Positions 6,760-21,582 of a stretch of DNA of 64,000 nt are shown in pieces. Origin of the DNA: Thioalkalivibrio nitratireducens DSM 14787 (GTDB lineage Bacteria > Pseudomonadota > Gammaproteobacteria > Ectothiorhodospirales > Ectothiorhodospiraceae); assembly GCF_000321415.2 (NCBI RefSeq), contig NC_019902.2:248001-312000 (forward strand), given 5' to 3'. Position 1 is the first letter of the stretch; every line of letters starts with the position of its first letter. Position numbers and translations under genes: made by a program. A model generated the notes under the pieces. The model was given only the letters and a program-made list of their open reading frames with translations, had not been told where the DNA came from and did no database searches.

Positions 6760-7111
6760 CATTTCTCCTTCGCCCCTTGGGCTGATCAAAGAATCGTGCT
6801 GGGCGTCTTCGTGCGCCCTCTGGATGCCATGGATATTGTTTTCCGGCGTCGCGCCCGGCAACGGGCTCTGGCCGGAGAAGCGATGCGGACCCATGAGTCG
6901 ATTCGTGCTTTGCGTATTAGCAATACGTTGTATTTTGAGACTCTCTGATTTTGGTCTGGCGCACGCTCCTTATACATTACATCATTCCCGAGAAATTGCT
7001 CGAGCGGCTGCGCGGATCGCCGCAACCCAAGACAAATACTGGAAAATCAATTATATATATAGGTTTTTGTGGTGTGTCGCGAGGTAGAGATCCTATGAGG
7101 GTAGTGATTTG

Positions 7112-7127
7112 TACCCATACGGAGGTA
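7112..7127 (+). promoter_or_regulatory. Candidate NarL/NarP 7-2-7 binding site
   Basis: TACCCAT-AC-GGAGGTA fits the NarL/NarP inverted-heptamer consensus (TACYYMT, 2-bp spacer, AKRRGTA) with a single mismatch. A second TACCCAT heptamer lies at 7135-7141, and the two GGTA/TACC half-sites in between form a perfect palindrome. The site is about 460 bp upstream of the octahaem nitrite reductase start and lies in the same island as a NarX/NarL pair, so a regulatory role is plausible but not shown. Confidence 0.45.
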
Positions 7128-7385
7128 GCCATGCTACCCATGCCGCGGGTGGCTGCCATTGGTAATGTTGAAACCATCGTGGGGAGGTGGTGTGATTTCT
7201 TGCGTATGGCGAGGTCGGTGGGCAAGGGGATGTGCTATATAGTGTCCGGTAAGGATGCGAGCAAAACCTGATGGTGACGTCGCAGTTGAAGTCATCCGTC
7301 ACGATCGATCGGGCATGGGAATGAGTGCCCAGGGAGCAGCAGAGGAAGGCAGCACCCGGATCATCGCATCCGACCTCTCGGAAAA

Positions 7386-7414
7386 CAGGGGCGCGGCTTG
7401 TAACCGCGCCCCTG
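7386..7414. promoter_or_regulatory. Strong 11-bp hairpin in the nitrite reductase leader region
   Basis: The arms caggggcgcgg (7386-7396) and ccgcgcccctg (7404-7414) are perfectly complementary around a 7-nt loop. No T-run follows. It lies about 175 bp before the reductase start, so it could be a leader-RNA structure, a rho-dependent or inefficient terminator of an upstream transcript, or an RNA-stabilising element. Confidence 0.4.
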
Positions 7415-7588
7415 CTTGCCTGAGGGGGCCGAGGGCGGCGCCAGGTTCGGGGCTTCGTCCGCACCCGGATCCGGGGGTGCTACAGGGGTGGGGCTTTCGA
7501 AGGGATGTCCCGCATAGACCGTAAAGGCAGACAAACGGCTCGAAGGGCTGCGGACAAGCCCGGGGGGCCGAGGAGAGGAGAACCTGTT

Positions 7589-9250
7589 ATGAATGATCTC
7601 AACAGACTCGGCCGTGTGGGCCGATGGATTGCGGGGGCAGCCTGTCTGTTCCTTGCCTCTGCCGCTCACGCGGAACCGGGGGAGAACCTCAAACCCGTGG
7701 ATGCGATGCAGTGCTTCGACTGCCACACGCAGATCGAGGACATGCACACAGTTGGCAAGCACGCCACCGTGAACTGTGTCCACTGTCACGATGCTACCGA
7801 GCACGTCGAAACGGCCAGCAGCCGCCGCATGGGCGAACGGCCCGTTACACGCATGGATCTGGAGGCCTGCGCTACCTGCCATACCGCACAGTTCAATTCC
7901 TTCGTTGAAGTGCGCCACGAGTCGCACCCGCGCTTGGAGAAGGCGACGCCGACGAGTCGGTCGCCGATGTTCGACAAGCTGATCGCCGGTCACGGTTTCG
8001 CGTTCGAGCACGCCGAACCGCGCAGTCACGCGTTCATGCTGGTCGATCACTTTGTCGTCGACCGCGCTTATGGCGGCCGCTTCCAGTTCAAGAACTGGCA
8101 GAAGGTCACCGACGGCATGGGGGCGGTTCGCGGCGCCTGGACAGTGCTGACCGATGCCGACCCCGAGAGCTCGGACCAGCGCCGGTTCCTGTCGCAGACG
8201 GCCACCGCCGCAAACCCGGTGTGCCTGAACTGCAAGACGCAGGACCATATCCTTGACTGGGCCTACATGGGTGACGAGCACGAAGCGGCCAAGTGGAGCC
8301 GGACCTCGGAGGTGGTCGAGTTCGCGCGTGACTTGAACCATCCGCTGAACTGCTTCATGTGCCATGACCCGCATTCGGCCGGTCCGCGCGTCGTGCGTGA
8401 CGGCCTGATCAATGCGGTTGTCGACCGCGGGCTCGGGACCTACCCGCATGACCCGGTGAAAAGCGAACAGCAGGGCATGACCAAGGTCACGTTCCAGCGC
8501 GGCCGCGAGGACTTCCGGGCGATCGGCCTGCTCGATACGGCGGATTCCAACGTGATGTGCGCCCAGTGCCACGTGGAGTACAACTGCAACCCGGGTTACC
8601 AGTTGAGTGACGGGTCGCGGGTCGGCATGGACGATCGTCGCGCCAACCACTTCTTCTGGGCCAACGTGTTCGACTACAAGGAAGCCGCGCAGGAGATCGA
8701 CTTCTTCGATTTCCGGCATGCCACCACCGGAGCGGCGCTGCCGAAGCTGCAGCATCCGGAGGCCGAGACGTTCTGGGGCTCTGTCCACGAGCGCAACGGC
8801 GTCGCCTGCGCCGACTGCCACATGCCCAAGGTTCAGCTGGAAAACGGCAAGGTCTACACCAGCCACAGCCAGCGCACGCCGCGTGACATGATGGGCCAGG
8901 CGTGTCTGAACTGCCATGCGGAGTGGACCGAGGATCAGGCCCTGTACGCGATCGACTACATCAAGAACTACACTCACGGCAAGATCGTCAAATCCGAGTA
9001 CTGGCTTGCCAAGATGATCGACCTGTTCCCGGTCGCGAAGCGGGCTGGCGTGTCGGAGGATGTTCTGAACCAGGCGCGTGAGCTGCACTACGACGCACAC
9101 CTGTACTGGGAGTGGTGGACCGCGGAAAACTCCGTCGGTTTCCACAACCCCGATCAGGCGCGTGAGTCGCTGATGACCTCGATCAGCAAGAGCAAGGAAG
9201 CCGTTAGCCTGCTGAATGACGCAATCGACGCCCAGGTGGCTTCGAGATAA
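7589..9250 (+). CDS. Octahaem cytochrome c nitrite reductase (TvNiR type)
   Basis: A 553-residue periplasmic cytochrome that reduces nitrite to ammonia (six electrons); the family also acts on sulfite and hydroxylamine. A 28-residue signal peptide ends AHA-EPGE, leaving 525 residues. Eight haem sites occur in order: CFDCH, CVHCH, CATCH, CLNCK, CFMCH, CAQCH, CADCH, CLNCH. The fourth, CLNCK at residues 212-216, places the Lys ligand of the catalytic haem at mature position 188. Tyr331 and Cys333 (YNC) become mature 303 and 305, the pair that forms the Tyr-Cys cross-link reported in Thioalkalivibrio TvNiR. As far as I recall, the protein is nearly identical to the T. nitratireducens/T. paradoxus enzyme. 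ATG 7589 follows aggagaggag. It has its own terminator and is followed by a haem-ligation cluster. Confidence 0.96.
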
Positions 9251-9271
9251 GCTGAAGTTCGACAGCCTGGA

Positions 9272-9302
9272 GGAGCCGGTGCTGGTCACCGGCTCCTTTT
9301 TT
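9272..9302 (+). terminator. Intrinsic terminator of the octahaem nitrite reductase gene
   Basis: A 10-bp perfect stem (ggagccggtg / caccggctcc) with a 5-nt loop is followed directly by six T residues at 9297-9302, 21 bp after the reductase stop. It separates the reductase transcript from the haem-ligation genes, which therefore probably have their own promoter between 9303 and 9466. Confidence 0.9.
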
Positions 9303-9466
9303 CACGGTTTCCTGCGGTAGATGTTGATGTCACGTGTTTCTGACTCCCGAGGCAATCGGGTGTGTATCGATTTCCCCAGCACCGACGGGCCGGCGTCACA
9401 GGTTCGACCCGCCGGTGCATTCCAAACGCGCAATTCGGCGGCTCCGGATTCCAAAGGCGGTGAGGC

Positions 9467-11467
9467 ATGATCCCGGAACTGGGTCAGTTCTTGATCGTTC
9501 TGGCGCTGGTGCTTGCGCTGGTTCAGGGAATCGGGCCGCTGGTCGGCGCGCATCGCGGCCACGCCAGCCTGATGGCCATTGGCCGACCGTTGGCGCAGGC
9601 ACAGTTCGTGCTGCTGCTGGCGGCATTCGCGGCGCTTGCGTGGTCCTTCCTCGCGCACGATTTCTCGGTGAAGAACGTCGCGCAGAATTCGTTCTCGCAG
9701 CTTCCTGCCGTGTACCGGTTCACCGCTACCTGGGGGTCCCACGAAGGTTCGCTGCTGCTTTGGACGGTGATTCTCGCGGGCTGGTCGGCGGCCGTCGCGG
9801 CATTCTCGAAGCAGCTGCCCGAGGAAATGGTGGCCCGTGTACTGGGTGTGATGGGTCTGATCAGTGTCGGTTTTCTGGCCCTGCTGATCTTCACTTCCAA
9901 TCCGTTCGAGCGCCTGTTCCCGATTCCGGCCGACGGACGCGACCTGAATCCGCTGCTCCAGGACGTCGGGATGATCTCGCACCCCCCGTTGCTCTACATG
10001 GGATACGTGGGGTTCTCGGTCGCGTTCGCGTTCGCGATCGCCGCGCTGCTGGCCGGCAAGCTCGACGCCGCGTGGGCGCGCTGGTCGCGTCCGTGGACCA
10101 CGACCGCCTGGACGTTCCTCACGCTGGGTGTGGCGCTCGGGAGCTGGTGGGCCTACCGTGAGCTGGGGTGGGGTGGGTGGTGGTTCTGGGATCCGACCGA
10201 GAACGCCTCGCTGATGCCCTGGCTGGCCGGCACCGCGCTGATTCACGCGCTGGCGGCTACCGAGAAGCGGGGCGTGTTCAGCAACTGGTCCGTGCTGCTG
10301 GCGATCGCGACGTTCTCGTTGTCCCTGCTCGGCACCTTCCTGGTGCGTTCCGGTGTATTGTCGTCGGTGCATGCCTTCGCAACCGACCCGGCCCGGGGCC
10401 TGTTCATCCTGGCGTTTCTGGGCCTGGTGATCGGCGGCTCGATGGCGCTGTACGCGCTGCGTGCGCCGCGCATCGTGTCGGGCGGTTCCTTCCACTGGTT
10501 CTCGCGCGAATCGCTGTTGCTGGCCAACAACGTGTTCCTGGTGGCCGCCCTCGGCGCGGTCCTGCTGGGTACGCTGTATCCGCTGTTCCTCGATGCGCTT
10601 GGGCTGGGCAAGATCTCGGTGGGGCCACCGTATTTCAACGCGGTCTTCGTGCCGTTGGTCGCCCCGGCGCTGTTCCTGGCCGGTCTCGGACCGCTGGCGC
10701 GCTGGAAGCAGGCCGATCTTCCGGATCTGATGTGGCGTCTGAAATGGGCGTTTGGGGTGGCACTGGCGACGGCGGCATTGCTGCCGCTGACGCTCAAGGG
10801 CATGAACCTGCAGGTGACGCTGGGTATCTTCCTCGCGCTCTGGATTCTGTTCACCGTGGCGAAGGGTTTTGCGTTGCGCCTGCGCAGTACCCGCAAGGGA
10901 CGCCTGCAGCAGTTGGCGGGAATGCCGAGGGCGTTCTGGGGAATGCAGATCGCGCATGCCGGACTGGCCCTGCTGGTGGTGGGAGTGACCGTCGTCTCCA
11001 ACTACGAAACCGAGCGCGACGTGCGCATGCCGATCGGCAGCCACGTCGAGCTGGCCGGATACCGCTTCCAGTTCCAGGGCGTAGAGGAGCTTCCGGGGCC
11101 GAATTACGTCGCCGGTCGGGGCACGATGGAGGTCACGAGTCCCTGGGGGCGAAATTTCGTGCTTTATCCCGAAAAGCGCAACTACAATGCGTCGGGCATG
11201 ATCATGACCCAGGCGGCGGTGAACTACGGGCCGTTCCGCGACGTGTACGTCTCGCTGGGCGAACCGCTGGGCGACGGCGTCTGGACCGTGCGCGTCTACC
11301 ACAAGCCTTTCGTCGGCTGGCTTTGGGCCGGCGCCCTGCTGCTCGCGATCGGCGGCGTGCTGGCGGCCGCCGACAGGCGTTACCGCGTCGTAGTCCGGCG
11401 CCGCGAGCGGTCGTCGGGAGCGGTGGCACCCGCCGCAGCCGTGCCCCGCGAGGAAGCCGCGACATGA
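9467..11467 (+). CDS. ccmF: Cytochrome c haem lyase, CcmF/NrfE family (first copy)
   Basis: A 666-residue polytopic membrane protein that joins haem from CcmE to apocytochrome c at the periplasmic face. It shows about 14 hydrophobic segments, the WWD-type haem-handling motif WGGWWFWDPTENAS (about residue 235), the conserved LYMGYVGFSVAFAFAIAAL segment before it, and ATEKRGVFSNW with the conserved His region after it. The start ATG 9467 follows an aaggcggtgagg ribosome site. It is the first gene after the octahaem nitrite reductase and overlaps ccmG by 4 bp. Because CXXCK haem sites need dedicated lyases in Nrf systems (NrfE with NrfF and NrfG), this copy is the likely NrfE equivalent; sequence alone cannot separate CcmF from NrfE. 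A second CcmF lies at 15332. Confidence 0.92.
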   Translation: MIPELGQFLIVLALVLALVQGIGPLVGAHRGHASLMAIGRPLAQAQFVLLLAAFAALAWSFLAHDFSVKNVAQNSFSQLPAVYRFTATWGSHEGSLLLWTVILAGWSAAVAAFSKQLPEEMVARVLGVMGLISVGFLALLIFTSNPFERLFPIPADGRDLNPLLQDVGMISHPPLLYMGYVGFSVAFAFAIAALLAGKLDAAWARWSRPWTTTAWTFLTLGVALGSWWAYRELGWGGWWFWDPTENASLMPWLAGTALIHALAATEKRGVFSNWSVLLAIATFSLSLLGTFLVRSGVLSSVHAFATDPARGLFILAFLGLVIGGSMALYALRAPRIVSGGSFHWFSRESLLLANNVFLVAALGAVLLGTLYPLFLDALGLGKISVGPPYFNAVFVPLVAPALFLAGLGPLARWKQADLPDLMWRLKWAFGVALATAALLPLTLKGMNLQVTLGIFLALWILFTVAKGFALRLRSTRKGRLQQLAGMPRAFWGMQIAHAGLALLVVGVTVVSNYETERDVRMPIGSHVELAGYRFQFQGVEELPGPNYVAGRGTMEVTSPWGRNFVLYPEKRNYNASGMIMTQAAVNYGPFRDVYVSLGEPLGDGVWTVRVYHKPFVGWLWAGALLLAIGGVLAAADRRYRVVVRRRERSSGAVAPAAAVPREEAAT

Positions 11468-11982
11468 GGCGCTGGATCCCGCTGCTGCTGGTGATGGCAC
11501 TCGGGGTATTCCTCTACCTCGGGCTGTACCTGAATCCCAAAGAGGTGCCGTCGCCTCTGGTTGGGCGCCCTGCACCGGACTTTACGCTGCCCGTGGTCGG
11601 CCGCCCGGGAGAGACCTTCTCGCCGTCCGAGGTGCGCGGCCAGGTGTGGTTGCTGAATATCTGGGCCCCCTGGTGCAGCACCTGCCTCGAGGAGCATCGC
11701 CACCTGCCGCGGATGGTCGCCGGGCGAGTACCGATCTACGGGCTGACCTGGAAGGATCTCGACCGCGAGGCGGCCCCGCTGCTCGCGCGCAACGGCAGCC
11801 CCTATGTGGCCGCGGTGGACGACCACGACGGACGCATCGCGATCCGTTACGGCGTAACCGTGACCCCGGAGACCTTCGTGATCGACCGCGACGGCATCAT
11901 CCGCATGAAACACGTAGGGCCGATCACCCCGGTGGTGTGGGAGCAGAAATTCGCACCGCTGCTCGCGGAGCTCAGGGTATGA
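11464..11982 (+). CDS. ccmG: CcmG/DsbE-type thiol:disulfide oxidoreductase (first copy)
   Basis: A 172-residue membrane-anchored thioredoxin-fold protein. One N-terminal transmembrane helix (RRWIPLLLVMALGVFLYLGL) is followed by a domain with the active site WAPWCSTC (about residue 67-71) and the cis-Pro segment GVTVTPETFVIDRDG. CcmG proteins reduce the cysteines of apocytochrome haem sites before ligation. Unlike many CcmG sequences the dipeptide between the cysteines is Ser-Thr. The gene overlaps the preceding ccmF and the following ccmH by 4 bp each, so it is translationally coupled. Confidence 0.9.
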   Translation: MRRWIPLLLVMALGVFLYLGLYLNPKEVPSPLVGRPAPDFTLPVVGRPGETFSPSEVRGQVWLLNIWAPWCSTCLEEHRHLPRMVAGRVPIYGLTWKDLDREAAPLLARNGSPYVAAVDDHDGRIAIRYGVTVTPETFVIDRDGIIRMKHVGPITPVVWEQKFAPLLAELRV

Positions 11983-12518
11983 CCAGGATGGCGCTGCTGC
12001 TCGCGGTCACGCTGATGCTGTCGCTGGTGCCATTGCTCGCCCCGGCGAGCCCGCCTGCCCTGCCGAATGCCGATGACCCGGCGCTCGAGGCGCGGCTGAA
12101 CATCCTCGCGGAAGATCTGCGCTGCGTGGTCTGTCAGAACGAGTCGCTGGCCGAGTCACGGGCGTCGCTGGCGCTGGATCTGCGCGAAGAGATTCGCGAG
12201 ATGATGCGCGCCGGGATGAGCGATGGCGAGGTCGTCGAGTCGCTGGTGGCGCGCTACGGAGATTTCGTGCTCTACCGGCCGCCGGTGAAACCGCTGACCT
12301 ACGCCCTTTGGGGCGGCCCGCTGCTGTTCCTCCTCGTGGGCGCGGGCCTGGCCGCCGGCACGCTGTATCGCCGCCGGTCGCTGCCGCCGGCACCCAACGT
12401 GAGCCGCGAGGCACTTCGGGAGGCTGCAGCCCTGCTCGATTCCGACGAACCGCTTCCACCACGAGCCCCATCCGTTTCCGGGCCGGTCTCCCGGTCCTCG
12501 TTGCAAGAAGAGAGGTAA
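11979..12518 (+). CDS. ccmH: CcmH/NrfF-type cytochrome c maturation thiol protein
   Basis: A 179-residue protein with a signal peptide (residues 1-23), a short three-helix domain carrying the defining LRCVVCQNESLAESRA motif (redox cysteines at about residues 49 and 52), and a C-terminal transmembrane helix (about 107-127, ALWGGPLLFLLVGAGLAAG) followed by a proline-rich tail. CcmH/NrfF presents the reduced apocytochrome to CcmF. This is the only LRCxxCQ protein in the window, although two CcmF and two CcmG are present. It overlaps ccmG by 4 bp. Confidence 0.92.
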   Translation: MTRMALLLAVTLMLSLVPLLAPASPPALPNADDPALEARLNILAEDLRCVVCQNESLAESRASLALDLREEIREMMRAGMSDGEVVESLVARYGDFVLYRPPVKPLTYALWGGPLLFLLVGAGLAAGTLYRRRSLPPAPNVSREALREAAALLDSDEPLPPRAPSVSGPVSRSSLQEER

Positions 12519-12523
12519 GACCC

Positions 12524-13789
12524 TTGAATTCGATCGTATCCGTAGCCGCGTTCTGGAGCATTGCCCTGCTGATTCTGGCCCTGGTCCTGCTTTGGGTCCT
12601 TCCGCCGCTGTTTCGGCGCCCCGCGACCGGCAAGACCCTGAACCGGCGGGAACTGAACATTGCCGTCTACCGCGACCAGTATCGGGAACTCGAGTCCGAT
12701 CACCGCAACGGGCTGCTCAGTGACGCGCAGCTGGAGGCTGCTCGCTCCGAACTGGAGGCGCGCCTGGCCCAGGACGCGCTGACCCGAACACCGACGCCGG
12801 CTGCGGCCACCGAGGGGGGGCGCGGTCTCGCGGCTGCGCTGCTGGCGGTCGTCCCCGCGCTCGCGCTGGGCGGCTACCTGGTCGTCGGCGACCCCGGATT
12901 CATCATGAAGGCGGCAGCGGCCGAACAGGCCGAACAGGAACGTCAGCGCAAGGTCGACGAGGCACTGGCGCGCCTGGAGGAACAGGTAGACGAGGCGCTG
13001 GCCAGCCTGGAGGAAGCGGTACGTGAGGATCCCGACGACGGCCTCAGCTGGACCTTCCTGGCCAACGCCTACATCGCCCGGGATCGGTGGGACGACGCCG
13101 AGGCCGCGTACGAGCGTGCCTACGAACTCCTTCCGGATACGGCAGTGGTCGTATCCGGCTACGCGGAGGCGCTGGCGGTGAACGCGGACCGGGACCTTCG
13201 GGGCAGGCCAATGGAACTGGTACGCGATGCGCTGGCGCTCGACCCTGAGGATCCGAAGGGTCTCGAGATGGCGGGCCTCCATGCCTATCAGAATCAGGAG
13301 TATGGCACCGCCGCCTATTACTGGAACCAGCTGTTGCGCCAGATGCCCGAGGGATCGCCAGCGCATGGCGAGCTCACCGCCATGGTCCGTCAGGCACGCG
13401 GGCTGTCGCGGGCGGAGGCTTTCGGCGAAGAGGCGGTGGGATCGACCGCAAGCATCACGGGCCGCGTCGAGCTCGCACCCGATCTGGCCGGAAGCGCTGA
13501 TCCGGGCGACACGGTCTACCTGTTCGCGCGCACCATCACTGGAAGCACCGCGCCGCTGGCGGCATTGCGCACGAGCCTGGATCAGTTGCCGGTGACCTTC
13601 ACCCTGGATGACAGCCTCGCGATGACTCCCGACCACGTTCTCTCCAATCACGAGAGTATTACGCTGGTGGCGCGCGTCTCCCGCCACGGTGACGCCCAGG
13701 CCCGTCCCGGCGACTTGGAAGGTGTGCTGGAATCGGTCGAGGTCGGTGCCGAAGACGTGCGTCTGGTGATCGACACCGTCCGACCCTGA
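12524..13789 (+). CDS. ccmI: CcmI/NrfG-type TPR protein of cytochrome c maturation (first copy)
   Basis: A 421-residue protein starting at TTG 12524, 5 bp after the ccmH stop with an agaggtaaga ribosome site. It has an N-terminal transmembrane helix (about 8-28), the CcmI-1 signature NIAVYRDQYRELESDHRNGLL, a second helix (about 103-125), an alanine/glutamate coiled coil, TPR repeats (about 165-300: DGLSWTFLANAYIARDRWDDAEAAYERAYEL and neighbours), and a C-terminal beta domain (about 310-421) that is typical of the CcmI/CycH family. CcmI chaperones the apocytochrome C-terminus. It closes the first cluster. Confidence 0.88.
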   Translation: MNSIVSVAAFWSIALLILALVLLWVLPPLFRRPATGKTLNRRELNIAVYRDQYRELESDHRNGLLSDAQLEAARSELEARLAQDALTRTPTPAAATEGGRGLAAALLAVVPALALGGYLVVGDPGFIMKAAAAEQAEQERQRKVDEALARLEEQVDEALASLEEAVREDPDDGLSWTFLANAYIARDRWDDAEAAYERAYELLPDTAVVVSGYAEALAVNADRDLRGRPMELVRDALALDPEDPKGLEMAGLHAYQNQEYGTAAYYWNQLLRQMPEGSPAHGELTAMVRQARGLSRAEAFGEEAVGSTASITGRVELAPDLAGSADPGDTVYLFARTITGSTAPLAALRTSLDQLPVTFTLDDSLAMTPDHVLSNHESITLVARVSRHGDAQARPGDLEGVLESVEVGAEDVRLVIDTVRP

Positions 13790-13872
13790 CTCAGCGTGCC
13801 GCGCCCGGGCGCGCCGGATCGGCGCCCGGGGCGGTGGCGCGCGAGACACGCTCAAATTCGGAGGAACGCACG

Positions 13873-14643
13873 ATGTCGCAGCGTGGCACGGTGGTGGTGG
13901 ACCGGGGTATCCAGTGGTTCCGGTTCACGGCGCCGGCGAATTTTTACGATCTGGCGGGGCGGATGATTCCGTGGTTTGCCGGGCTGACGGTGATTCTGTT
14001 CGTGATCGGGCTGTACCTGGGGCTGGTGGTGGCGCCGCCGGATTACCAGCAGGGGGACAGTTACCGGATCATTTACATTCACGTGCCGGCGGCGTGGATG
14101 TCGATGTTTCTGTACGTATTGATGGCCGTGTATGCCGGGATCGGGCTGGTGTGGCGGATCAAGATGGCGGAGGTGATGGCGAAGGCGATTGCGCCGACGG
14201 GGGCACTGTTCACGTTCCTGGCGTTGTGGACCGGGGCGTTGTGGGGGCGGCCGACCTGGGGGGTGTACTGGGTTTGGGATGCGCGCCTGACGTCGGAACT
14301 TATTCTGCTGTTTCTGTATCTGGGCTACATGGCGTTGCACGCGGCGATCGACGATCGGCAGCGGGCGGCGAACGCGAGTGCGGTGTTGGCGCTGGTGGGT
14401 GTGGTGAACGTGCCGATCATTTATTTTTCGGTGCAGTGGTGGAACACCTTGCACCAGGGGGCGTCGATCACGGTGACCGAGGCGCCGACGATGGCGACGA
14501 TCATGTTCGTGACCTTGCTGATCATGACGCTGGCATGCTGGATGTATTCGATTGCGGTGGTGCTGGCGCGGGCGCGGATCGAGGTGCTCGAGCGCGAGCG
14601 CCGGGCGCGCTGGGTACGGGAACGGCTGGAGGGTGAGACATGA
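13873..14643 (+). CDS. ccmC: Haem export/handling protein CcmC
   Basis: A 256-residue protein with six hydrophobic segments. The WWD-type motif reads WGRPTWGVYWVWDARLTSELIL, flanked by the two conserved His regions (YIHVPAAWMSM and WWNTLHQGASI), which together load haem onto CcmE. The start ATG 13873 follows ggaggaa. It begins the second maturation cluster, 83 bp after ccmI. ccmA and ccmB, which normally precede it, are absent here. Its codon choice (many codons ending in G) differs from that of the upstream cluster. Confidence 0.93.
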   Translation: MSQRGTVVVDRGIQWFRFTAPANFYDLAGRMIPWFAGLTVILFVIGLYLGLVVAPPDYQQGDSYRIIYIHVPAAWMSMFLYVLMAVYAGIGLVWRIKMAEVMAKAIAPTGALFTFLALWTGALWGRPTWGVYWVWDARLTSELILLFLYLGYMALHAAIDDRQRAANASAVLALVGVVNVPIIYFSVQWWNTLHQGASITVTEAPTMATIMFVTLLIMTLACWMYSIAVVLARARIEVLERERRARWVRERLEGET

Positions 14644-14810
14644 TGGAGTTTCTGGCGATGGGCGGGTATGCGCCCTATGTCTGGGGCTCGTATTTGGTGA
14701 TGGCTGGGCTGTTACTGGTGGAGTTGGTGCAGTTGCGCTATCGCCGGCGCAGTCTGATGGGCTGGCTCAAGCGCATGGCCCGGTTGAACGAGCAGGAGGG
14801 TACGCGATGA
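14643..14810 (+). CDS. ccmD: Haem exporter subunit CcmD
   Basis: A 55-residue single-span protein (MEFLAMGGYAPYVWGSYLVM, then an LLLVELVQL helix end and a basic RYRRRS tail). The GGYAxYVW pattern is the CcmD hallmark. CcmD helps release holo-CcmE from CcmC. An in-frame ATG also exists one codon earlier (14640). The gene overlaps the ccmC stop and its own stop overlaps the ccmE start, as expected for a tightly coupled ccmCDE unit. Confidence 0.9.
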   Translation: MEFLAMGGYAPYVWGSYLVMAGLLLVELVQLRYRRRSLMGWLKRMARLNEQEGTR

Positions 14811-15328
14811 AGACGCGACAGAAGCGGTTGTTGCTGGTGGCCGGCGGGCTGGCGAGCCTGGCGGTGGTGGCGGGGCTGGTGCTCAACGCCTTTCGGGACA
14901 ATCTGGTGTTTTTCTACACGCCGTCGGACATCGTCGCCGACATCGTGCCGATGGAGCGGACGTTCCGGATTGGCGGGCTGGTCGAGGACGGCAGCGTGCA
15001 GCGGGCCGAGGACGGGGTGACGGTGCATTTCCGGGTGACCGACACCGCGGTGGCGGTGCCGGTGGTGTATCACGGCATCCTGCCGAACCTGTTCCGCGAG
15101 GGCCAGGGCGTGGTCGCGGTGGGCAGTCTGCAGGACGGCGGGGTGTTCAAGGCCAGCCAGGTGATGGCGCGCCACGACGAAACCTACATGCCGCCGGAGG
15201 CGGCGGAGGCGATCGAGCGCGCGCAGCGCGAGCAGGCGCGCACGGTCGGTGCGGCCGACGCTGCGGTGGGCGGCCATCCCGGCGGCACGCCCGGCGGCTA
15301 TTCCGGCGGTTATTCCGGGGGGTACTGA
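14807..15328 (+). CDS. ccmE: Haem chaperone CcmE
   Basis: A 173-residue protein with an N-terminal membrane anchor (about 9-29) and an OB-fold domain. The haem-binding motif HDETYMPPE is present at about residues 124-132, with the covalent His and the axial Tyr. CcmE carries haem from CcmC to CcmF. The C-terminus ends in an unusual Gly/Tyr-rich tail (GGTPGGYSGGYSGGY) made from short repeated codons. It overlaps ccmD by 4 bp and is 3 bp from ccmF. Confidence 0.94.
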   Translation: MKTRQKRLLLVAGGLASLAVVAGLVLNAFRDNLVFFYTPSDIVADIVPMERTFRIGGLVEDGSVQRAEDGVTVHFRVTDTAVAVPVVYHGILPNLFREGQGVVAVGSLQDGGVFKASQVMARHDETYMPPEAAEAIERAQREQARTVGAADAAVGGHPGGTPGGYSGGYSGGY

Positions 15329-15331
15329 GGC

Positions 15332-17353
15332 ATGATTGCCGAGCTTGGACTGTTTGCGCTGATCCTGGCGCTGCTGTTGGCGATCGCCCAGGGCACGCTG
15401 CCGCTGATCGGCGCCGCACGCGGCGACGTCGCGCTGATGGCGGTGGGGCGCAGCGCCGCGTTCGGGCAGCTGTTCTTCGTCGCGCTGGCGTACGCGGCGC
15501 TGACCTGGGCCTTTGTCACCGACGACTTCTCGCTGCGCTATGTCGCGACCCACTCCAACTCGCTGCTGCCGACCCAGTACAAGATCTCCGGGGTCTGGGG
15601 CGGACACGAGGGCTCGCTGCTGCTGTGGGTGTTGATCCTGAGCCTGTGGAGCGCGGCGGTCGCGACCTTCAGCCGCAGCCTGCCGCGCGAGGTGCTGGCG
15701 CGGGTGCTGGGCGTGATGGGCCTGGTCGCGATCGGCTTCATCGGCTTCACCTTGTTCACCTCGAGCCCGTTCGAGCGCCTGCTGCCGGCGGCGATGGAAG
15801 GGCGCGATCTCAACCCGATGCTGCAGGACCCGGGGCTGATCTTCCACCCGCCGATGCTGTACATGGGCTATGTCGGCTTCTCGGTCGCGTTCGCGTTCGC
15901 GATCGCCGCGCTGATCGGCGGCCGGCTCGATGCGGCCTGGGCGCGCTGGTCGCGGCCCTGGACCGCGGTCGCCTGGGCGTTTCTGACGCTCGGCATCGCG
16001 CTCGGGAGTTGGTGGGCGTACTACGTGCTCGGCTGGGGCGGCTGGTGGTTCTGGGATCCGGTCGAGAACGCGTCGTTCCTGCCCTGGCTGATGGGTACCG
16101 CGCTGCTGCATTCGCTGGCGGTGACCGAGAAGCGCGGCGGGTTCAAGAACTGGACCGTGATGCTCGCGATCCTGACCTTCTCGCTGGTGCTGCTGGGCGC
16201 GTTCCTGGTGCGTTCCGGGGTGCTGACCTCGGTGCACGCGTTCGCGGTCGACCCCGACCGCGGGCTGTACCTGCTCGGCTTCATGGCGGTGGTCGTCGCC
16301 GGCTCGCTGACGCTGTTCGCCTGGCGCGCGGGCAAGGTCGGTCTCGGCGGCAGCTTCGGGCTGGTCTCGCGCGAGTCGGCGCTGCTGACCAACAACGTGC
16401 TGCTGGCGGTGTCCGCAGCGGCGGTGCTGCTGGGCACGCTGTACCCCTTGTTCCTCGACGCGTTCGGTCTGGGCAAGATCTCGGTCGGCCCGCCGTACTT
16501 CGAGGCGGTGTTCCTGCCGTTGATGCTGCCGCTGTTGCTGCTGCTCGGGTTCGGCCCGCGGCTGCGCTGGAAGCAGGACAGCCCGACCGAGCAGCTGTGG
16601 CGGCTGCGCTGGATCCTCGGGTTCAGCCTGGTGTTCGGGATGCTCTGGCCGCTGGCGGTCGGCAGCTGGTCGCTGCTTGCCGGAATGGGCACCTTCCTCG
16701 GGCTGTGGATCATCGGCTCGGCACTGAAGGACCTGGTCGAGCGCCTGCGCCGGCGCCCGGGCAGCACGCAGGGCTTCGGCACCCGGGTCAAGCGGCTCGG
16801 GCGCAGCTACGCCGGCATGCAGATCGCGCACATCGGCGTCGCACTGCTGGTGATCGGCGTCACCTTCGTGCTCGGCTACGACGACGAGCGCGACGTGCGC
16901 ATGGCGGTGGGCGAGACGGTCGAGGTCGGCGGCTACGCGTTCCGGCTCGATGCGCTGGAACACATCGACGGGCCGAACTACAGCGCCGAACAGGCGACGG
17001 TCGCGGTGTACCGCGACGACGGCCGGCGCCTGGCGACGCTGCGCCCGCAGATGCGCGACTACTTCAGCCAGGACATGCCGATGGCACACACCTCGCTGCA
17101 CCGGGGGCTGTTCCGGGACCTGTACGTGAACATGGGAGAGCCGCTGGGCGGGGATGCCTGGGTGATGCGCGTCTACTACAAGCCGTACATGAACTGGATC
17201 TGGACCGGCGCGGTGCTGATGGGCCTGGGCGGCTTCCTGGCCGCCACCGACCGCCGCTACCGCGTGCGCGTGCGCCGCGAGGAGGATCTGCCCGACGACG
17301 ACACCGACACCGCCGCCAGGCCCCCGGGCAAGCCGTCGGCTGCGTCGGCCTGA
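15332..17353 (+). CDS. ccmF: Cytochrome c haem lyase CcmF (second copy)
   Basis: A 673-residue polytopic protein with the haem-handling motif WGGWWFWDPVENASFLPW (about residues 234-251) and the same segment order as the copy at 9467 (FHPPMLYMGYVGFSVAF, TEKRGGFKNW, LTSVHAF). It follows ccmE closely and is therefore the general-purpose lyase for CXXCH sites. The two copies are clearly paralogous; the differences are spread over the whole length. It starts at ATG 15332 behind a weak ribosome site in the ccmE tail. Confidence 0.94.
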   Translation: MIAELGLFALILALLLAIAQGTLPLIGAARGDVALMAVGRSAAFGQLFFVALAYAALTWAFVTDDFSLRYVATHSNSLLPTQYKISGVWGGHEGSLLLWVLILSLWSAAVATFSRSLPREVLARVLGVMGLVAIGFIGFTLFTSSPFERLLPAAMEGRDLNPMLQDPGLIFHPPMLYMGYVGFSVAFAFAIAALIGGRLDAAWARWSRPWTAVAWAFLTLGIALGSWWAYYVLGWGGWWFWDPVENASFLPWLMGTALLHSLAVTEKRGGFKNWTVMLAILTFSLVLLGAFLVRSGVLTSVHAFAVDPDRGLYLLGFMAVVVAGSLTLFAWRAGKVGLGGSFGLVSRESALLTNNVLLAVSAAAVLLGTLYPLFLDAFGLGKISVGPPYFEAVFLPLMLPLLLLLGFGPRLRWKQDSPTEQLWRLRWILGFSLVFGMLWPLAVGSWSLLAGMGTFLGLWIIGSALKDLVERLRRRPGSTQGFGTRVKRLGRSYAGMQIAHIGVALLVIGVTFVLGYDDERDVRMAVGETVEVGGYAFRLDALEHIDGPNYSAEQATVAVYRDDGRRLATLRPQMRDYFSQDMPMAHTSLHRGLFRDLYVNMGEPLGGDAWVMRVYYKPYMNWIWTGAVLMGLGGFLAATDRRYRVRVRREEDLPDDDTDTAARPPGKPSAASA

Positions 17354-17362
17354 GGCCCGGGC

Positions 17363-17902
17363 ATGCGTTCGCGTTCGCTGCTTCCCTTCCTGCCCGTTCT
17401 GATTCTGATCGGGCTGGTCGGGGCGCTGGCCGGTGCACTGGTCTGGAATATAATGAACGTTCCGGAGCCACTGGTGGGCCGCGACGCACCGGCGTTCGAT
17501 CTGCCGGAATTGCGGAACCCGGAGGCCCGGTTCGCCAGCACCGACATGCTCGGACAGCCGGCGCTGCTGAACGTCTGGGCGTCGTGGTGCGTGACCTGCC
17601 GCCAGGAGCACCAGACATTGGTGAGCCTCGAGCGCATGGGTATCCCGGTATTCGGCCTGAACTTCCGCGACAGCCGCGAGCAGGCGGTGAATTACCTGAG
17701 CCGGGGAGGAGACCCGTTCTCCGCGATCGGATTCGACCCGAACGGGCGGGTCAGTGCGGATTGGGGCGTGCATGCGACGCCGGTGACGTTCCTGGTCGAC
17801 CGTCATGGGCAGGTCCGGTTCAAGCATGTCGGCCCGCTGCGCGCGGAACTCGTGCGGCGCGAATTGATCCCGCTCTATCGCCAGCTCGAGGCCGAGTCAT
17901 GA
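17363..17902 (+). CDS. ccmG: CcmG/DsbE thiol:disulfide oxidoreductase (second copy)
   Basis: A 179-residue protein with one N-terminal transmembrane helix (about 7-28) and a thioredoxin-like domain with WASWCVTCRQEH (about residues 72-83), the CcmG-type acidic loop after it, and the cis-Pro segment HATPVTFLVDRHG. It reduces apocytochrome cysteines. It lies 9 bp after ccmF. Confidence 0.93.
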   Translation: MRSRSLLPFLPVLILIGLVGALAGALVWNIMNVPEPLVGRDAPAFDLPELRNPEARFASTDMLGQPALLNVWASWCVTCRQEHQTLVSLERMGIPVFGLNFRDSREQAVNYLSRGGDPFSAIGFDPNGRVSADWGVHATPVTFLVDRHGQVRFKHVGPLRAELVRRELIPLYRQLEAES

Positions 17903-17986
17903 CGGCCCCCGCGGGCCGGATTCCGTTCGGTTCGCGGAGCCCGGGGTTGGTGCCCCGGCGGCAAACCCTGTATTTCGGAGAAGTGA

Positions 17987-18874
17987 ATGACCCTGTTCTG
18001 GATTCTTGCGATCGCGCTCTTGGCGATCTCCTTGCTGTTCGTGTTCGTGCCGTTGTGGCGTGCCCGGACGGTGGTCGACACCACCGGCGCCCGGAGAGGC
18101 GCAACCGGTACCGGCTTGTCGATCTATCGCAGTCAGATGGCGGAACTCGACGCCGACCACCAGGCCGGTGCATTGTCCGAGGCGCAGTATCAGGCCGCAA
18201 AAGTGGACCTGCAGCGCAGCCTGCTCGAGATGTCCGAATCGGCAAAGGGTTCGAACCGCACGCCGTCGCACTCCTGGCGCTGGGCCGCCGGCGGCGCAGC
18301 GCTGATGCTGGTCCCGGTGCTGGCTGTGGGCATCTACCAGGGATTCGGCGGCGGTCCGCTGGCCTTTGATCCGCCGCGGCAGCCCGATCCGTCCGAGACC
18401 GTCGCCAGTGCCGGGAACGGCCCCGACGAGATCGTCGAGGCACTGCGTGAACGCCTGGACCAGAGCCCGGACGACCCGATCGCCTGGGCATTGCTGGGTA
18501 AGGTCTACCACGCGATGGGGCTGACGCGGCAGGCCGCGCAAGCCTACGCCGAGTCGCTCGAGTACGGCGGAAACCACGACGCCGACATCTTGGTGGACTA
18601 CGCCGATGTCCTCGGTACAATTCAGAACGGCAACCTCGAGGGGCGGCCGCGCGAACTGGTCCGGCGTGCTCTTGCGATCGAGCCTGATCACGTCACCGGC
18701 TTGTGGCTCGCGGGTACCGCGGCCTTCCGCGCGGGCGACTACGCCGACGCTCGCGAGCACTGGCAGCGGCTTGCGCGCCGCCTGCCGGAGGACTCGCAGA
18801 ACGGCGCGGTCATCCGCGCGAACCTCGACGAGCTGGAGGCGCGCCTGGCCCGGGCGGGCGACGTGAACCCCTGA
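17987..18874 (+). CDS. ccmI: CcmI-type TPR protein (second copy)
   Basis: A 295-residue protein with an N-terminal helix (TLFWILAIALLAISLLFVFV), the CcmI-1 pattern LSIYRSQMAELDADHQAGAL, a second helix (about 99-115) and TPR units (DPIAWALLGKVYHAMGLTRQAAQAYAESLEY and following). It is shorter than the copy at 12524 because it lacks the C-terminal beta domain. No LRCxxCQ protein (CcmH) lies between it and ccmG, where one would normally be. ATG 17987 follows cggag at 17976-17980. Confidence 0.85.
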   Translation: MTLFWILAIALLAISLLFVFVPLWRARTVVDTTGARRGATGTGLSIYRSQMAELDADHQAGALSEAQYQAAKVDLQRSLLEMSESAKGSNRTPSHSWRWAAGGAALMLVPVLAVGIYQGFGGGPLAFDPPRQPDPSETVASAGNGPDEIVEALRERLDQSPDDPIAWALLGKVYHAMGLTRQAAQAYAESLEYGGNHDADILVDYADVLGTIQNGNLEGRPRELVRRALAIEPDHVTGLWLAGTAAFRAGDYADAREHWQRLARRLPEDSQNGAVIRANLDELEARLARAGDVNP

Positions 18875-18946
18875 CGCCTGCGCCGACCCGCCGCCCGGCG
18901 GTGCCGTTGCCACCCCGTGCGTGGTCCCCATGGCCTGCGGGAACCA

Positions 18947-18975
18947 TCTATGATCATGGGTGCAGTCATCATAGA
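18947..18975. promoter_or_regulatory. Dyad upstream of the NarX-like kinase gene
   Basis: Perfect 8-bp arms tctatgat (18947-18954) and atcataga (18968-18975) are separated by 13 bp, 53 bp before the kinase start. The spacing suits a dimeric regulator or an RNA hairpin. The bound factor cannot be named from sequence. Confidence 0.4.
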
Positions 18976-19028
18976 GGGGGTACCGGCCGACCGCCTGCCG
19001 CGGGTGCGGCGCCGCCCCGGGGATCCGC

Positions 19029-20945
19029 ATGCTACGTCGTATCCATCGCTCGCTGCTCGTGCAATTGGGTTTCGCGCTGTCGCTGATGGCCACCATGGCC
19101 CTGTTCGGTATCGTGACCTCGGTGATCATTGCCGAGCAGTTGCGCGGTGCGGCAACGGCGATCAATCATGCCGGCACCCTGCGCTACTCGACCTACGCCG
19201 CGAGCACCACGGCGCTGCGGCCGGAAGTCGAGGACGCGGCGCGGCACCGGGCGGATCTGGAGGCCGCGCTGGAGCGGTTCGAACGGCATTACCGGAGTGA
19301 GGCTCTTCAGCGGCTGGTGCCAAGCGAAGCGTCGCACCCGGCGCGGCGATCCTACGACGAGGTCGGGCGGATCTGGGACGCCGAAATGCGGCCGTTGATC
19401 CTCGGGTTCTCTGCTGTGCACCCGGATGGCGCAGGCTACCGGAATCTGCGTGTGGCGGTCGACGATTTCGTGGAGTTGGTCGACCGGATGGTGCTGCAGC
19501 TCGAACAGCGTACGGAGGCCTTCGTGCAGGTTCTGCGCGGCGTGCAGGCGGCCTGCCTGCTGATGACGGTGCTGGTGATGCTCTACACCGTCGGGTTTCT
19601 GCGGCGGCAGGTGATGCGCCCGCTGCGCGAACTGCTCGCCGGTGCCGAGGAGGTGCGCCACGGCGACTTTACCCGTCATGTTGCCCATACCGGGCGCGAC
19701 GAACTGGGACAGCTGGGTGCGGCGTTCAACCGGATGACCCGGGACCTGTCACGCCTCTACGGCGATCTCGAGGAGCGCGTGCGCGAGAAGACGCGGGCGC
19801 TCGAGTACAGCAACCGGTCGCTGGAACTGATGTACCGCTCGCTGAGCCATCTGCACGATGGCTCCCTGAACCGGGCGACCTACACCGACACCCTGCGCGA
19901 GATGGAGCAGGTGCTCGGCCTGGGGCACGGCAGCCTCTGCCTGCTCGAGCAGGACGGTCGCAAGGGTTTCCAGCTGGCCAACTCGGGAACCAGCGACGAC
20001 TCGACCGGACCTCTGTGTGACCGCTTGACGTGTGCGGCCTGCATCGACGATGCCCGCGAGGGTCCACAGCTGAAGACGGGACCCGACGGCCACCGGGTGG
20101 TATCCGTGCCGCTGTTCGACGGCGGGGAACTGCACGCGCTGCTGCAGATGACGGTACCCGGGGAAACCCGGCCCGAGCCGTGGCAGCTGCAATTGGTCGC
20201 GGCGATCGGCCGGCACCTCGGGGTCGCGATCGCGAGTCAGCGTCGTGCCCTTCAGGGCCGGCGCCTGGCGCTGCTGGAGGAGCGGGCGACGATTGCTCGG
20301 GAATTGCACGACTCGCTGGCCCAGGCGCTCAGCTACCTGAAGATCCAGGTCAGCCGCCTGCGCGCGGCGCTGCGCGGTTCACGCCGCAATGAGGAGGTGG
20401 AAGCGGCGCTGCAGGAACTCCACCATGGGCTGAACGACGCCTATGGGCAACTGCGCGAACTGCTGACGACGTTCCGGATCGGCCGAGGTGGAGAGGGATT
20501 GGGACGCACGCTCGAGGAGACGGCCGCCGGTATCGCGGCGCGCGGGCCCATCGAGATCACACTCGAGAACCGGCTCGCCGACGGGGAGCTCAATATCAAC
20601 GAGGAGATCCACGTGCTGCAGATCGTTCGGGAGGCGCTGTGCAACGTCCTGCGGCATGCCCGCGCCTCGCACGCCTGGGTGCGGCTGGAGTGGGCACCGG
20701 AGGGGGTTCTGCTGACGATCCGCGACGACGGCATCGGCATCGGCATCGGCATCGGCATTGGCGCCGGGGCCCGCGACAAATCGGATCACTACGGACTCTC
20801 GATCATGCGCGAGCGCGCACGGCAGTTGCATGGGACGATCTCAGTCGAGCCTGTTCGCGACGGCGGCACCTGCGTGGAACTGAGGTTCCGACCCGCGCCG
20901 GCCCCGGTTCCGCAACCGGCCGAAGCCGCGCGCTGGGCGGTCTGA
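19029..20945 (+). CDS. narX: NarX/NarQ-type nitrate/nitrite sensor histidine kinase
   Basis: A 638-residue membrane kinase. The order is: transmembrane helix 1 (about 12-36); a periplasmic domain with a P-box-like INHAGTLRYSTYAAS (about 45-60), the nitrate-binding helix of NarX/NarQ; transmembrane helix 2 (about 173-195); HAMP; a signalling helix; a GAF-like domain with a cysteine cluster (C304, C330, C335, C338); HisKA_3 with the phosphoacceptor His427 in ARELHDSLAQ; and HATPase with NIxxEIxxLQIVREALxNxxxHA and DDGIGIG. The G1 box is stretched by a repeat. It phosphorylates the regulator that starts 1 bp after its stop. Its closeness to the nitrite reductase island points to nitrite or nitrate sensing. 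ATG 19029 has no strong ribosome site. Confidence 0.88.
   Translation: MLRRIHRSLLVQLGFALSLMATMALFGIVTSVIIAEQLRGAATAINHAGTLRYSTYAASTTALRPEVEDAARHRADLEAALERFERHYRSEALQRLVPSEASHPARRSYDEVGRIWDAEMRPLILGFSAVHPDGAGYRNLRVAVDDFVELVDRMVLQLEQRTEAFVQVLRGVQAACLLMTVLVMLYTVGFLRRQVMRPLRELLAGAEEVRHGDFTRHVAHTGRDELGQLGAAFNRMTRDLSRLYGDLEERVREKTRALEYSNRSLELMYRSLSHLHDGSLNRATYTDTLREMEQVLGLGHGSLCLLEQDGRKGFQLANSGTSDDSTGPLCDRLTCAACIDDAREGPQLKTGPDGHRVVSVPLFDGGELHALLQMTVPGETRPEPWQLQLVAAIGRHLGVAIASQRRALQGRRLALLEERATIARELHDSLAQALSYLKIQVSRLRAALRGSRRNEEVEAALQELHHGLNDAYGQLRELLTTFRIGRGGEGLGRTLEETAAGIAARGPIEITLENRLADGELNINEEIHVLQIVREALCNVLRHARASHAWVRLEWAPEGVLLTIRDDGIGIGIGIGIGAGARDKSDHYGLSIMRERARQLHGTISVEPVRDGGTCVELRFRPAPAPVPQPAEAARWAV
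20730..20765 (+). repeat. Hexanucleotide repeat in the ATP-binding G1 box of the NarX-like kinase
   Basis: Four perfect ggcatc units (20730-20753) plus two diverged units (ggcatt, ggcgcc) encode alternating Gly-Ile. They lengthen the DxGxGI box of the kinase to DDGIGIGIGIGIGAGA. Copy-number changes would keep the frame. Confidence 0.9.
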
Positions 20946-20946
20946 C

Positions 20947-21582
20947 ATGACGGCAACGGTCCGCGTGCTGGTGATCGACGACCACCCCCTGTTCCGGCGG
21001 GGGGCGCGTCATCTGATGGATATCGATGGCGGGTTCGAGGTCGTCGGCGAGGCCAGTTCCGGGCGCGAGGGCCTCGATCTGGCGCTGAGCCTGCGGCCCG
21101 ACCTGGTGCTGCTGGACCTGAACATGAGCGACATGGACGGCACCGAGACCCTCGGCGCGCTGCGCGAGGCCGGGATCGACGCCCGCGTGGTCATGCTCAC
21201 CGTGTCCGACGAGGAGGAGGATCTGGTGGCCGCGCTGCGGGCCGGTGCCGATGGCTACCTGTTGAAGCATACCGAGCCCGAGGATCTGCTGCGCCAGTTG
21301 CGGCAGGTGCTCTCGGGCCGCCTCATCCTGACCGACGAACTCACCGAACGCCTGGCCGAGGCGATGCGCCGCCAGCCGGCCCCCGGGGAGCGCGTTGTGC
21401 TGACGCGCCGCGAACAGGAGGTGCTCGACCAGATCGCCGCCGGCCTGAGCAACAAGCAGATCGCGCGGGAACTGGGGCTGAGCGAAGGCACGGTCAAGGT
21501 GCATGTGAAGCACCTGCTGAAGAAGCTCGGGATGCACTCCCGCCTCGAGGCGGCCCTGTGGGTGGTGGAACAGCAGAAATAG
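20947..21582 (+). CDS. narL: NarL-family response regulator
   Basis: A 211-residue two-domain regulator. The receiver domain shows the acidic pair D11-D12, phosphoacceptor D57 (VLLDLNM), a Thr/Ser switch (MLTVSD) and Lys (YLLKHTEPEDLL, as in NarL). The C-terminal LuxR/GerE helix-turn-helix reads LTRREQEVLDQIAAGLSNKQIARELGLSEGTVKVHVKHLLKKL, here given as separate parts: LTRREQEVL, SNKQIARELGLSEGTVKVHV, KHLLKKLG. It is the partner of the kinase immediately upstream. Its likely targets include the 7-2-7 site at 7112. Confidence 0.92.
   Translation: MTATVRVLVIDDHPLFRRGARHLMDIDGGFEVVGEASSGREGLDLALSLRPDLVLLDLNMSDMDGTETLGALREAGIDARVVMLTVSDEEEDLVAALRAGADGYLLKHTEPEDLLRQLRQVLSGRLILTDELTERLAEAMRRQPAPGERVVLTRREQEVLDQIAAGLSNKQIARELGLSEGTVKVHVKHLLKKLGMHSRLEAALWVVEQQK

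Follow-up and report, generated by a model that had tools for sequence, protein, structure and literature searches.

A putative dedicated haem-ligation gene set beside the octahaem nitrite reductase gene of Thioalkalivibrio nitratireducens

The stretch analysed here, called the window, comprises 64,000 nucleotides of Thioalkalivibrio nitratireducens DSM 14787 (bases 248001–312000 of a 4.00 Mb single-contig genome, G000); coordinates below are window positions, and other genomes and loci carry G and L numbers. It holds an island in which the genes of flavocytochrome c sulfide dehydrogenase (fccB-fccA) and octahaem nitrite reductase (ONR) are followed by two groups of cytochrome c maturation (ccm) genes, ccmF1-G1-H1-I1 and ccmC-D-E-F2-G2-I2, and by a narX/narL-like pair. 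All of these reading frames are open, and since G002 (L106) has the same order, the arrangement is not due to chance. The first-pass annotation of this DNA, made from the sequence alone, had listed the same genes within 17 kb, and every gene that it named proved intact, with the order as stated and 16.7 kb from fccB to narL. It had further proposed, with the NrfEFG-type lyases as its precedent, that the first ccm set is a specialised lyase for the fourth haem of the reductase and that NarXL switches the island on with nitrite or nitrate.

The reductase gene (7589..9250, + strand) encodes TvNiR, a name tied to PDB 2OT4 (PMC5433712; here and below, papers are cited for those parts of their text that were available). 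Its product is identical in 524 of 524 residues to PDB 4q0t and also matched the PDB 2OT4 sequence; many structures of TvNiR have been solved. The haem motifs run as three CXXCH, a fourth motif of the CXXCK kind (CLNCK), and four more CXXCH, in agreement with the description of octahaem nitrite reductase as carrying seven CXXCH and one CXXCK (PMC5433712). The gene immediately downstream, ccmF1 (9467..11467, +), encodes the putative ONR-dedicated haem lyase, F1, which matches TIGR00353 with 736.6 bits and contains the Cytochrom_C_asm and CcmF_C (409 bits) domains of a CcmF. The WWD motif is kept in F1, and four conserved histidines, which we take to be those at positions 173, 261, 303, and 491 of E. 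coli CcmF, are kept in 7/7 rows of the F1 type. It is followed by ccmG1 (11464..11982, +; DsbE-like thioredoxin, TIGR00385 136.3 bits), ccmH1 (11979..12518, +; NrfF/CcmH-like, PF03918 145 bits), and ccmI1 (12524..13789, +), which by its domain matches encodes a TPR apocytochrome chaperone with an Ig_CycH domain and for which the start codon is our choice. No second ccmH was found in the island, where ccmH1 is the sole copy, and the genome has two CcmH in all, H1 and one in the other ccm locus. The first set consists of ligation genes only, and as in NrfEFG systems these extra genes lie beside a CXXCK reductase on top of a Ccm system.

F1 is bound to the reductase throughout the genus. ONR (at least 79% identity) occurs in six of the 30 genus genomes (G000, G002, G016, G020, G023, and G025), and F1-type CcmF was found in 6/6 of these and in 0/24 of the rest. 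The first-pass annotation had named F1 in close relatives lacking the reductase as a finding that would count against its proposal; F1 instead tracks ONR across the 30 genomes. Wherever the contig reaches, F1 adjoins ONR; in G023 both genes lie at contig ends. CcmF of any kind is present in 14 of the 30 genomes, and the eight without F1 have the canonical type, seen in G019 only as two fragments. In the listed matches from 370 genomes of the class, F1 at 80% identity or more occurs only in G000 and in G295, where it again adjoins ONR, and the next best of the listed matches is 64%. The genus is itself split between system I (CcmF), seen in 14 genomes, and system II (ResB over the cut-off), seen in 16, with both in two; among the 16 genomes without CcmF, 14 have ResB over the cut-off and two incomplete ones have neither.

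To place this arrangement among other ONR loci, we kept 80 loci out of 127 relatives found. The motif order HHHKHHHH was present in 78 of the 79 ONR read, the remaining one being cut by a contig end. Forty-four loci had sufficient flanks on both sides: in 17, fccB precedes ONR and CcmF follows it within 6 kb, and the others have CcmF only (six), fccB only (two), or neither (19). Three arrangements were distinguished, namely type A (fccAB-ONR-ccmABC(D)EFGHI), type B (CcmF and CcmI downstream of ONR, plus a CcmH seen in some), and type C, the arrangement of the window. In 49 searched genomes, drawn from the 80 loci, we counted one CcmF in 28, two in 10, and none in 11. A second CcmF besides the ONR-linked one was found in 7/8 type B genomes searched, and G450, which stands outside the 19 type A genomes searched, combines a type A with a type B locus. 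In the 31 loci without ccm genes, two Thioalkalivibrio queries for ResB/CcsA beside ONR found ResB only in L090, and distant homologs may escape such queries. Several Thiobacillaceae-like ccm loci depart from these arrangements: an octahaem cytochrome with eight CXXCH fills the ONR slot between fccAB and ccmA in L327 (10396–11871) and L332 (10426–11991), and fccAB lies directly before ccmA in L317 and L320. The type B CcmF of L062, L324, L370, and L371 reach about 800 residues, exceeding the others by some 130.

The descent of F1 was followed in CcmF trees. The first drew on 157 CcmF places, collapsed to 110 rows, and omitted eight of these (two L064 pieces, the near-duplicates L018 and L023, and four class rows) and some fragments; the second omitted L351–L354 and L370–L372, with other groups thinned; and the third used 47 of 106 rows. 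F1 and its type C relatives are monophyletic with full support and fall inside or next to the CcmF of the Thiobacillaceae type, while F2 groups with the canonical CcmF of the genus (11 rows, starred support of 100). F1 is not a copy of F2: in approximately unbiased (AU) tests, from which L016, L061, L130, and L183 were omitted, a single clade of F1 and F2-type CcmF was rejected (p 8e-62). A clade of type B with NrfE was not rejected (p 0.0524), and one of types B and C, named as a hypothesis after the tree had been seen, was marginal (p 0.0402). Both F1 (708.5 bits) and F2 (747.9 bits) score below the cut-off of the NrfE model TIGR03145 (927.3), and both satisfy TIGR00353 and NF007691, which cover NrfE and CcmF more broadly. 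L228 and L241 were tried as NrfE references and rejected, their neighbourhoods looking like ordinary ccm clusters. The first tree had also shown the ONR-linked CcmF as one clade of 42 rows, none of them from a genome known to lack ONR; this was discarded as a sampling effect, since many Thiobacillaceae-type CcmF with no ONR beside them in the fetched stretch fell inside it once they were added. In the ONR tree, which omitted seven ONR shorter than 440 aa, type C forms one fully supported clade nearest to type A, which is also its nearest neighbour in the CcmF tree. We read this as a sign that ONR and lyase were probably inherited mostly as one block.

The second ccm group has another history. 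It comprises ccmC (13873..14643, +; TIGR01191 247.3 bits, start codon chosen by us), ccmD (14640..14810, +; assigned by position and reading frame, the stretch tried giving no Pfam match), ccmE (14807..15328, +; PF03100 120.5 bits), ccmF2 (15332..17353, +; the housekeeping-type CcmF, F2), ccmG2 (17363..17902, +), and ccmI2 (17987..18874, +; TPR domain). The same chromosome has, at about 2.07 Mb, a second ccm locus whose gene content is ccmABCDEFGHI; its ccmC-D-E-F (L007 11175–14592) are 99.88% identical over 3420 bp to window positions 13904..17323. The CcmG and CcmI of that locus differ far more from their island-specific counterparts G2 and I2, with identities of 57.6% and 48%. In G002 the two ccmCDEF copies are 99.65% identical to each other over 2564 bp, and the island copies of G000 and G002 are 95.2% identical. 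The island of G023 (L378) reads F1-G1-H1-I1-G2-I2-narX-narL, with no CDEF between, so that ccmG2 adjoins ccmI1 there. The second ccm set is no system in its own right: its ccmCDEF2 part duplicates housekeeping genes almost exactly and is absent at this place in G023. The near-identity of the copies in both G000 and G002 is a sign of gene conversion. We infer that ccmCDEF was copied into the island before G000 and G002 split, if a single event was involved, and that the copies have stayed alike in each of the two genomes. Two copies appear damaged, and sequencing error is possible in both cases: the ccmF at 2.07 Mb in G000 is broken by two single-base differences from F2, and the island ccmC of G002 lies in two frames. 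The contigs of G019 break at the repeated ccmCDEF.

Upstream of the reductase, in the opposite orientation, lie fccA (6157..6762, − strand) and fccB (4846..6141, −). FccB, the flavoprotein subunit, matches Pfam FCSD_central (157.8 bits) and FCSD-flav_bind (69 bits) and the PDB entries 5n1t, 1fcd, and 3vrd; FccA, the dihaem cytochrome c subunit, has two CXXCH and Cytochrom_C domains, with a start codon that is uncertain and was chosen by us. The pair of FCSD flavin-binding domain and dihaem partner assigns them to flavocytochrome c sulfide dehydrogenase. At the other end of the island, the narX-like gene (19029..20945, +) encodes a sensor kinase with 30% identity to E. coli NarX (E 1e-69), a PilJ-type sensory region, and HAMP, GAF, HisKA_3, and HATPase_c domains; the narL-like gene adjacent to it (20947..21582, +) encodes a regulator with Response_reg and GerE domains. 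We searched the window with TACYYMTNNAKRRGTA, which we take to be the 7-2-7 binding consensus of NarL. With at most one mismatch there was a single match against 0.03 expected, the palindrome TACCCATACGGAGGTA at 7112..7127 in the gap between fccA and ONR, which has one mismatch; with three mismatches there was no excess in the window (7 vs 8.7). The aligned site has no mismatch in G002 and one in L011, and no NarL-type site was found at the same aligned columns of L086. About 110 bases beyond it lies TGTGCTATA (7231..7239, +), a −10-like element of the presumed ONR promoter, which is kept in the window, G002, and L011 and is not aligned in L086. The proposed switch gains ground from this predicted site, which recurs at corresponding alignment positions in three of the four genomes compared, and NarXL may turn the unit on through it. 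FNR-like sites (at most two mismatches) number 20 in the window against a mean of 6.7, more than in any of 100 shuffles; in the fccA-ONR gap, none was found at that threshold.

Whether a CXXCK motif calls for a lyase of its own can be judged from pentahaem NrfA, which, with CYNCK or CWNCK, is encoded in G003, G016, G019, G022, and G025. The proteins with PF01578 in G003 are a canonical CcmF, a CcmC, and a further one of 269 aa, similar proteins being present in 12/14 genomes searched, and the 16 kb around the G003 NrfA gene gave no match to queries from the window or from the nrf and ccm genes of E. coli. Canonical CcmF seems to be enough for NrfA in this genus, as has been reported for Shewanella (PMC6976685, PMC3769277). 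The type A genomes searched have one CcmF each, which, if nothing else does the work, serves CXXCH and CXXCK alike. Because these genomes manage with a single CcmF (19/19) and G003 with a canonical one, a dedicated CcmF does not appear to be required for CXXCK, and with the Shewanella case added, the premise of the first-pass annotation that it is was too strong. Its appeal to an NrfEFG-type lyase in Wolinella also falls, since Wolinella uses NrfI, a CcsBA-type synthase (PMC12285233). For G000 itself, the ONR query, which finds NrfA in five congeners, found no NrfA; T. nitratireducens is stated to have NrfA as well (PMC12285233).

We also looked for residues that set the ONR-linked CcmF apart. 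Types B and C are told apart from canonical CcmF by three columns (at least 85% within the two types and at most 10% outside), and only one of these columns, F1 residue 249 right after the WWD motif (WGGWWFWDPxENAS, then F to L), also separates the two types from the Thiobacillaceae set. In the first sample, Leu was found in 18/18 CcmF of types B and C, and Phe in 36/37 canonical and 49/50 Thiobacillaceae-set CcmF, the one exception in the latter being L016, which was moved to the class of separately encoded CcmF for the last sample, of 94 rows. This sample took in 8/11 type B rows (without L061, which is long, and two fragments), about half of L400–L439, and eight of the Thiobacillaceae set, and left L363 aside. 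Here Leu was present in 21/22 CcmF encoded apart from ccmABCE (seven of type C, eight of type B, L016, E. coli NrfE, L373, L385, L386, and L387; L389 has Phe) and in 6/72 others, one of the 72 being unreadable; the separate state of L016 and L387 was judged from short contigs. Both true NrfE (2/2) have Leu. An earlier pool of 160 readable CcmF gave 27 Leu and 133 Phe, with three more unreadable, and sixty further CcmF places, some of them refetched, gave 8 Leu, 51 Phe, and one unreadable. Leu-249 was rejected as an exclusive mark of CXXCK, as it also occurs in the ccm-cluster CcmF of L187/L384, L383, L397, L415, L381, and L081. On the tree, five changes were counted for the separate state and nine at residue 249; a paired test had no power, with three independent pairs on starred branches, of which 2.4 agree on average (median p 0.5).

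The association of Leu with separately encoded CcmF is suggestive only. Among the separately encoded CcmF with Leu are NrfE, those of ONR types B and C, and a pair encoded close to an HAO-like gene. In a structural review, the WWD domain has been suggested to optimise both haem chemistry and haem release, with CXXCK synthases perhaps differing at a histidine ligand (PMC10663686). We entertain tentatively, as a rather unlikely generalisation, that CcmF devoted to a single enzyme of the NrfA, ONR, or HAO kind arose several times and shared a Phe-to-Leu change that tunes the haem site for an unusual active-site haem. The HAO-like pair comes from G374 (L440 10798–19397) and G439 (L441 10242–19994), which hold genes for proteins resembling HAO (octahaem; the one in L440 matches Pfam Multi-haem_cyto with 499.8 bits), cytochrome c554, and NapC. 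Beyond these genes, a second CcmF-CcmH unit with Leu at the WWD-adjacent site follows a MocR-type regulator (L385), besides a full ccm cluster; the CcmI of this unit was seen in G439.

We regard the first set as most likely a dedicated system I ligation module, bound to ONR and arisen apart from NrfE. In the fuller account, F1-G1-H1-I1 would have been inherited together with ONR from a Thiobacillaceae-like fccAB-ONR-ccm cluster, and only the ligation part would have been kept in Thioalkalivibrio because the haem supply, CcmABCDE, was already present. With haem received from CcmE, the set would load apo-TvNiR, in all likelihood including the CXXCK of haem 4, and I1 (and I2) would act as client-specific chaperones. 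G2-I2 would be part of the same old island, ccmCDEF2 would have been copied in later from the housekeeping locus and kept alike by conversion, and NarXL would turn the unit on through the candidate 7-2-7 site between fccA and ONR. Such a nitrite-ammonification island with its own maturation set is, in our judgement, slightly better than an even bet.

A number of observations weigh against this account. A clade uniting F1 with NrfE (E. coli NrfE and L373, an nrfABCD-linked NrfE, both long-branched) was rejected (AU p 0.00316), and with it the idea of F1 as an NrfEFG-type lyase; F1 instead sits within the general CcmF clade, next to or inside the Thiobacillaceae-type set, the placement that the first-pass annotation had said would speak against its proposal. 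The CcmF and ONR trees match incompletely: type B forms a single group by CcmF (support 79–89) and two groups by ONR; L016 joins type C in the ONR tree (97, starred) and in one CcmF tree, and type B in two later CcmF trees; and type C stands beside type A for ONR and weakly inside it for CcmF. The 11 of 49 ONR genomes without any CcmF, the single CcmF in 19/19 type A genomes searched, and G003, which is 99% complete and has a CYNCK NrfA and no F1, point the same way, as does G062 (type B), in which no CcmF besides the ONR-linked one was seen. In G280, a CcmF of type B (L387, G280:C15) lies at a contig end, and an ONR search of this genome found nothing; G019 (L376, G019:C66) keeps the end of F2 with G2-I2-narX-narL, and no ONR or F1 was found there. 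In the Thiobacillaceae-type family, 114/117 genomes matched F1, many by a weak CcsA-like match of about 30%. Among 56 loci of this kind (eight without readable F or ccmA), 36 have an F1-like CcmF (at least 64%) and at least 2.5 kb before ccmA, and six of these show ONR within the fetched stretch and 30 none, a share that is biased in that the 36 come mostly from genomes outside the ONR scan. Linkage alone could also be hitch-hiking. What stands of the first-pass proposal of a specialised lyase is that the set is ONR-bound in the genus and made of ligation genes only; it is not NrfE, and a need for it on the part of CXXCK does not follow.

The set might instead be specific for its client and not for the motif, loading all eight haems of TvNiR, which I1 and I2 would recognise as a whole, with CXXCK incidental. 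The eight-CXXCH cytochromes in the ONR slot of L327 and L332 fit such a view, as there the link between ccm and octahaem genes does not track CXXCK, and so does the second CcmF unit near a CXXCH-only HAO-like octahaem gene in G374 and G439. However, a canonical CcmF is already at hand in the genome for CXXCH sites, and the type B and C units, like NrfEFG, hold ligation genes only; we consider this explanation unlikely, if still worth serious attention. The finding that F1 falls inside or beside a set whose ONR-linked members have no second CcmF in their genomes (19/19 searched) would also suit a mere passenger, which came with ONR from the donor's only ccm operon and adds capacity without specificity. 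A passenger would hardly leave the full-length type C F1 rows open in 7/7 when redundant copies are seen to break (the ccmF at 2.07 Mb and the island ccmC of G002); moreover, the ccmABCDE of the presumed donor was not kept and type B repeats the pattern, and we think this explanation quite improbable.

It could finally be CcmF2 or the housekeeping CcmF that ligates CXXCK, leaving the first set to another job. Shewanella provides a precedent, its NrfA being served in this way (PMC6976685), and G003 and G022 each have a CXXCK NrfA and one CcmF, of the canonical type. Given that every genus genome in which F1 was found also has ONR, this seems to us very improbable indeed.

Parts of this arrangement have counterparts in known systems. 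Like E. coli NrfEFG (L091, L092), the island has CcmF-, CcmH-, and CcmI-like genes beside a CXXCK nitrite reductase and besides a Ccm system; unlike NrfEFG, its F1 does not group with NrfE, its set includes a CcmG, its I1 is long and has an Ig_CycH domain, and its client is an octahaem enzyme. The SirEFG(H) system of Shewanella oneidensis also links a dedicated CcmF-like synthase to an octahaem reductase (PMC6976685), but the motif of its client is CX12NKGCH. The Thiobacillaceae-type Ccm system I contains the closest relatives of F1 and shows the same order of fccAB, ONR, and ccm, whereas its loci have the full operon with the genome's only CcmF (19/19 searched). NrfI of Wolinella succinogenes is likewise dedicated to CXXCK but is a system II, CcsBA-type synthase (PMC12285233). 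In the literature searched, mostly outside subscription journals, we found no description of a lyase for ONR or of the attachment of the Lys-ligated haem of TvNiR, and the available parts of PMC12285233, PMC4429474, PMC5433712, and PMC8840924 describe no ONR lyase.

Taken together, these results name a likely lyase for TvNiR, and one that is not NrfE. They also provide a testable contrast, in that one genus contains two CXXCK reductases, one with and one without an adjoining dedicated CcmF; a further contrast comes from one residue next to the haem-handling motif, which many such lyases share.

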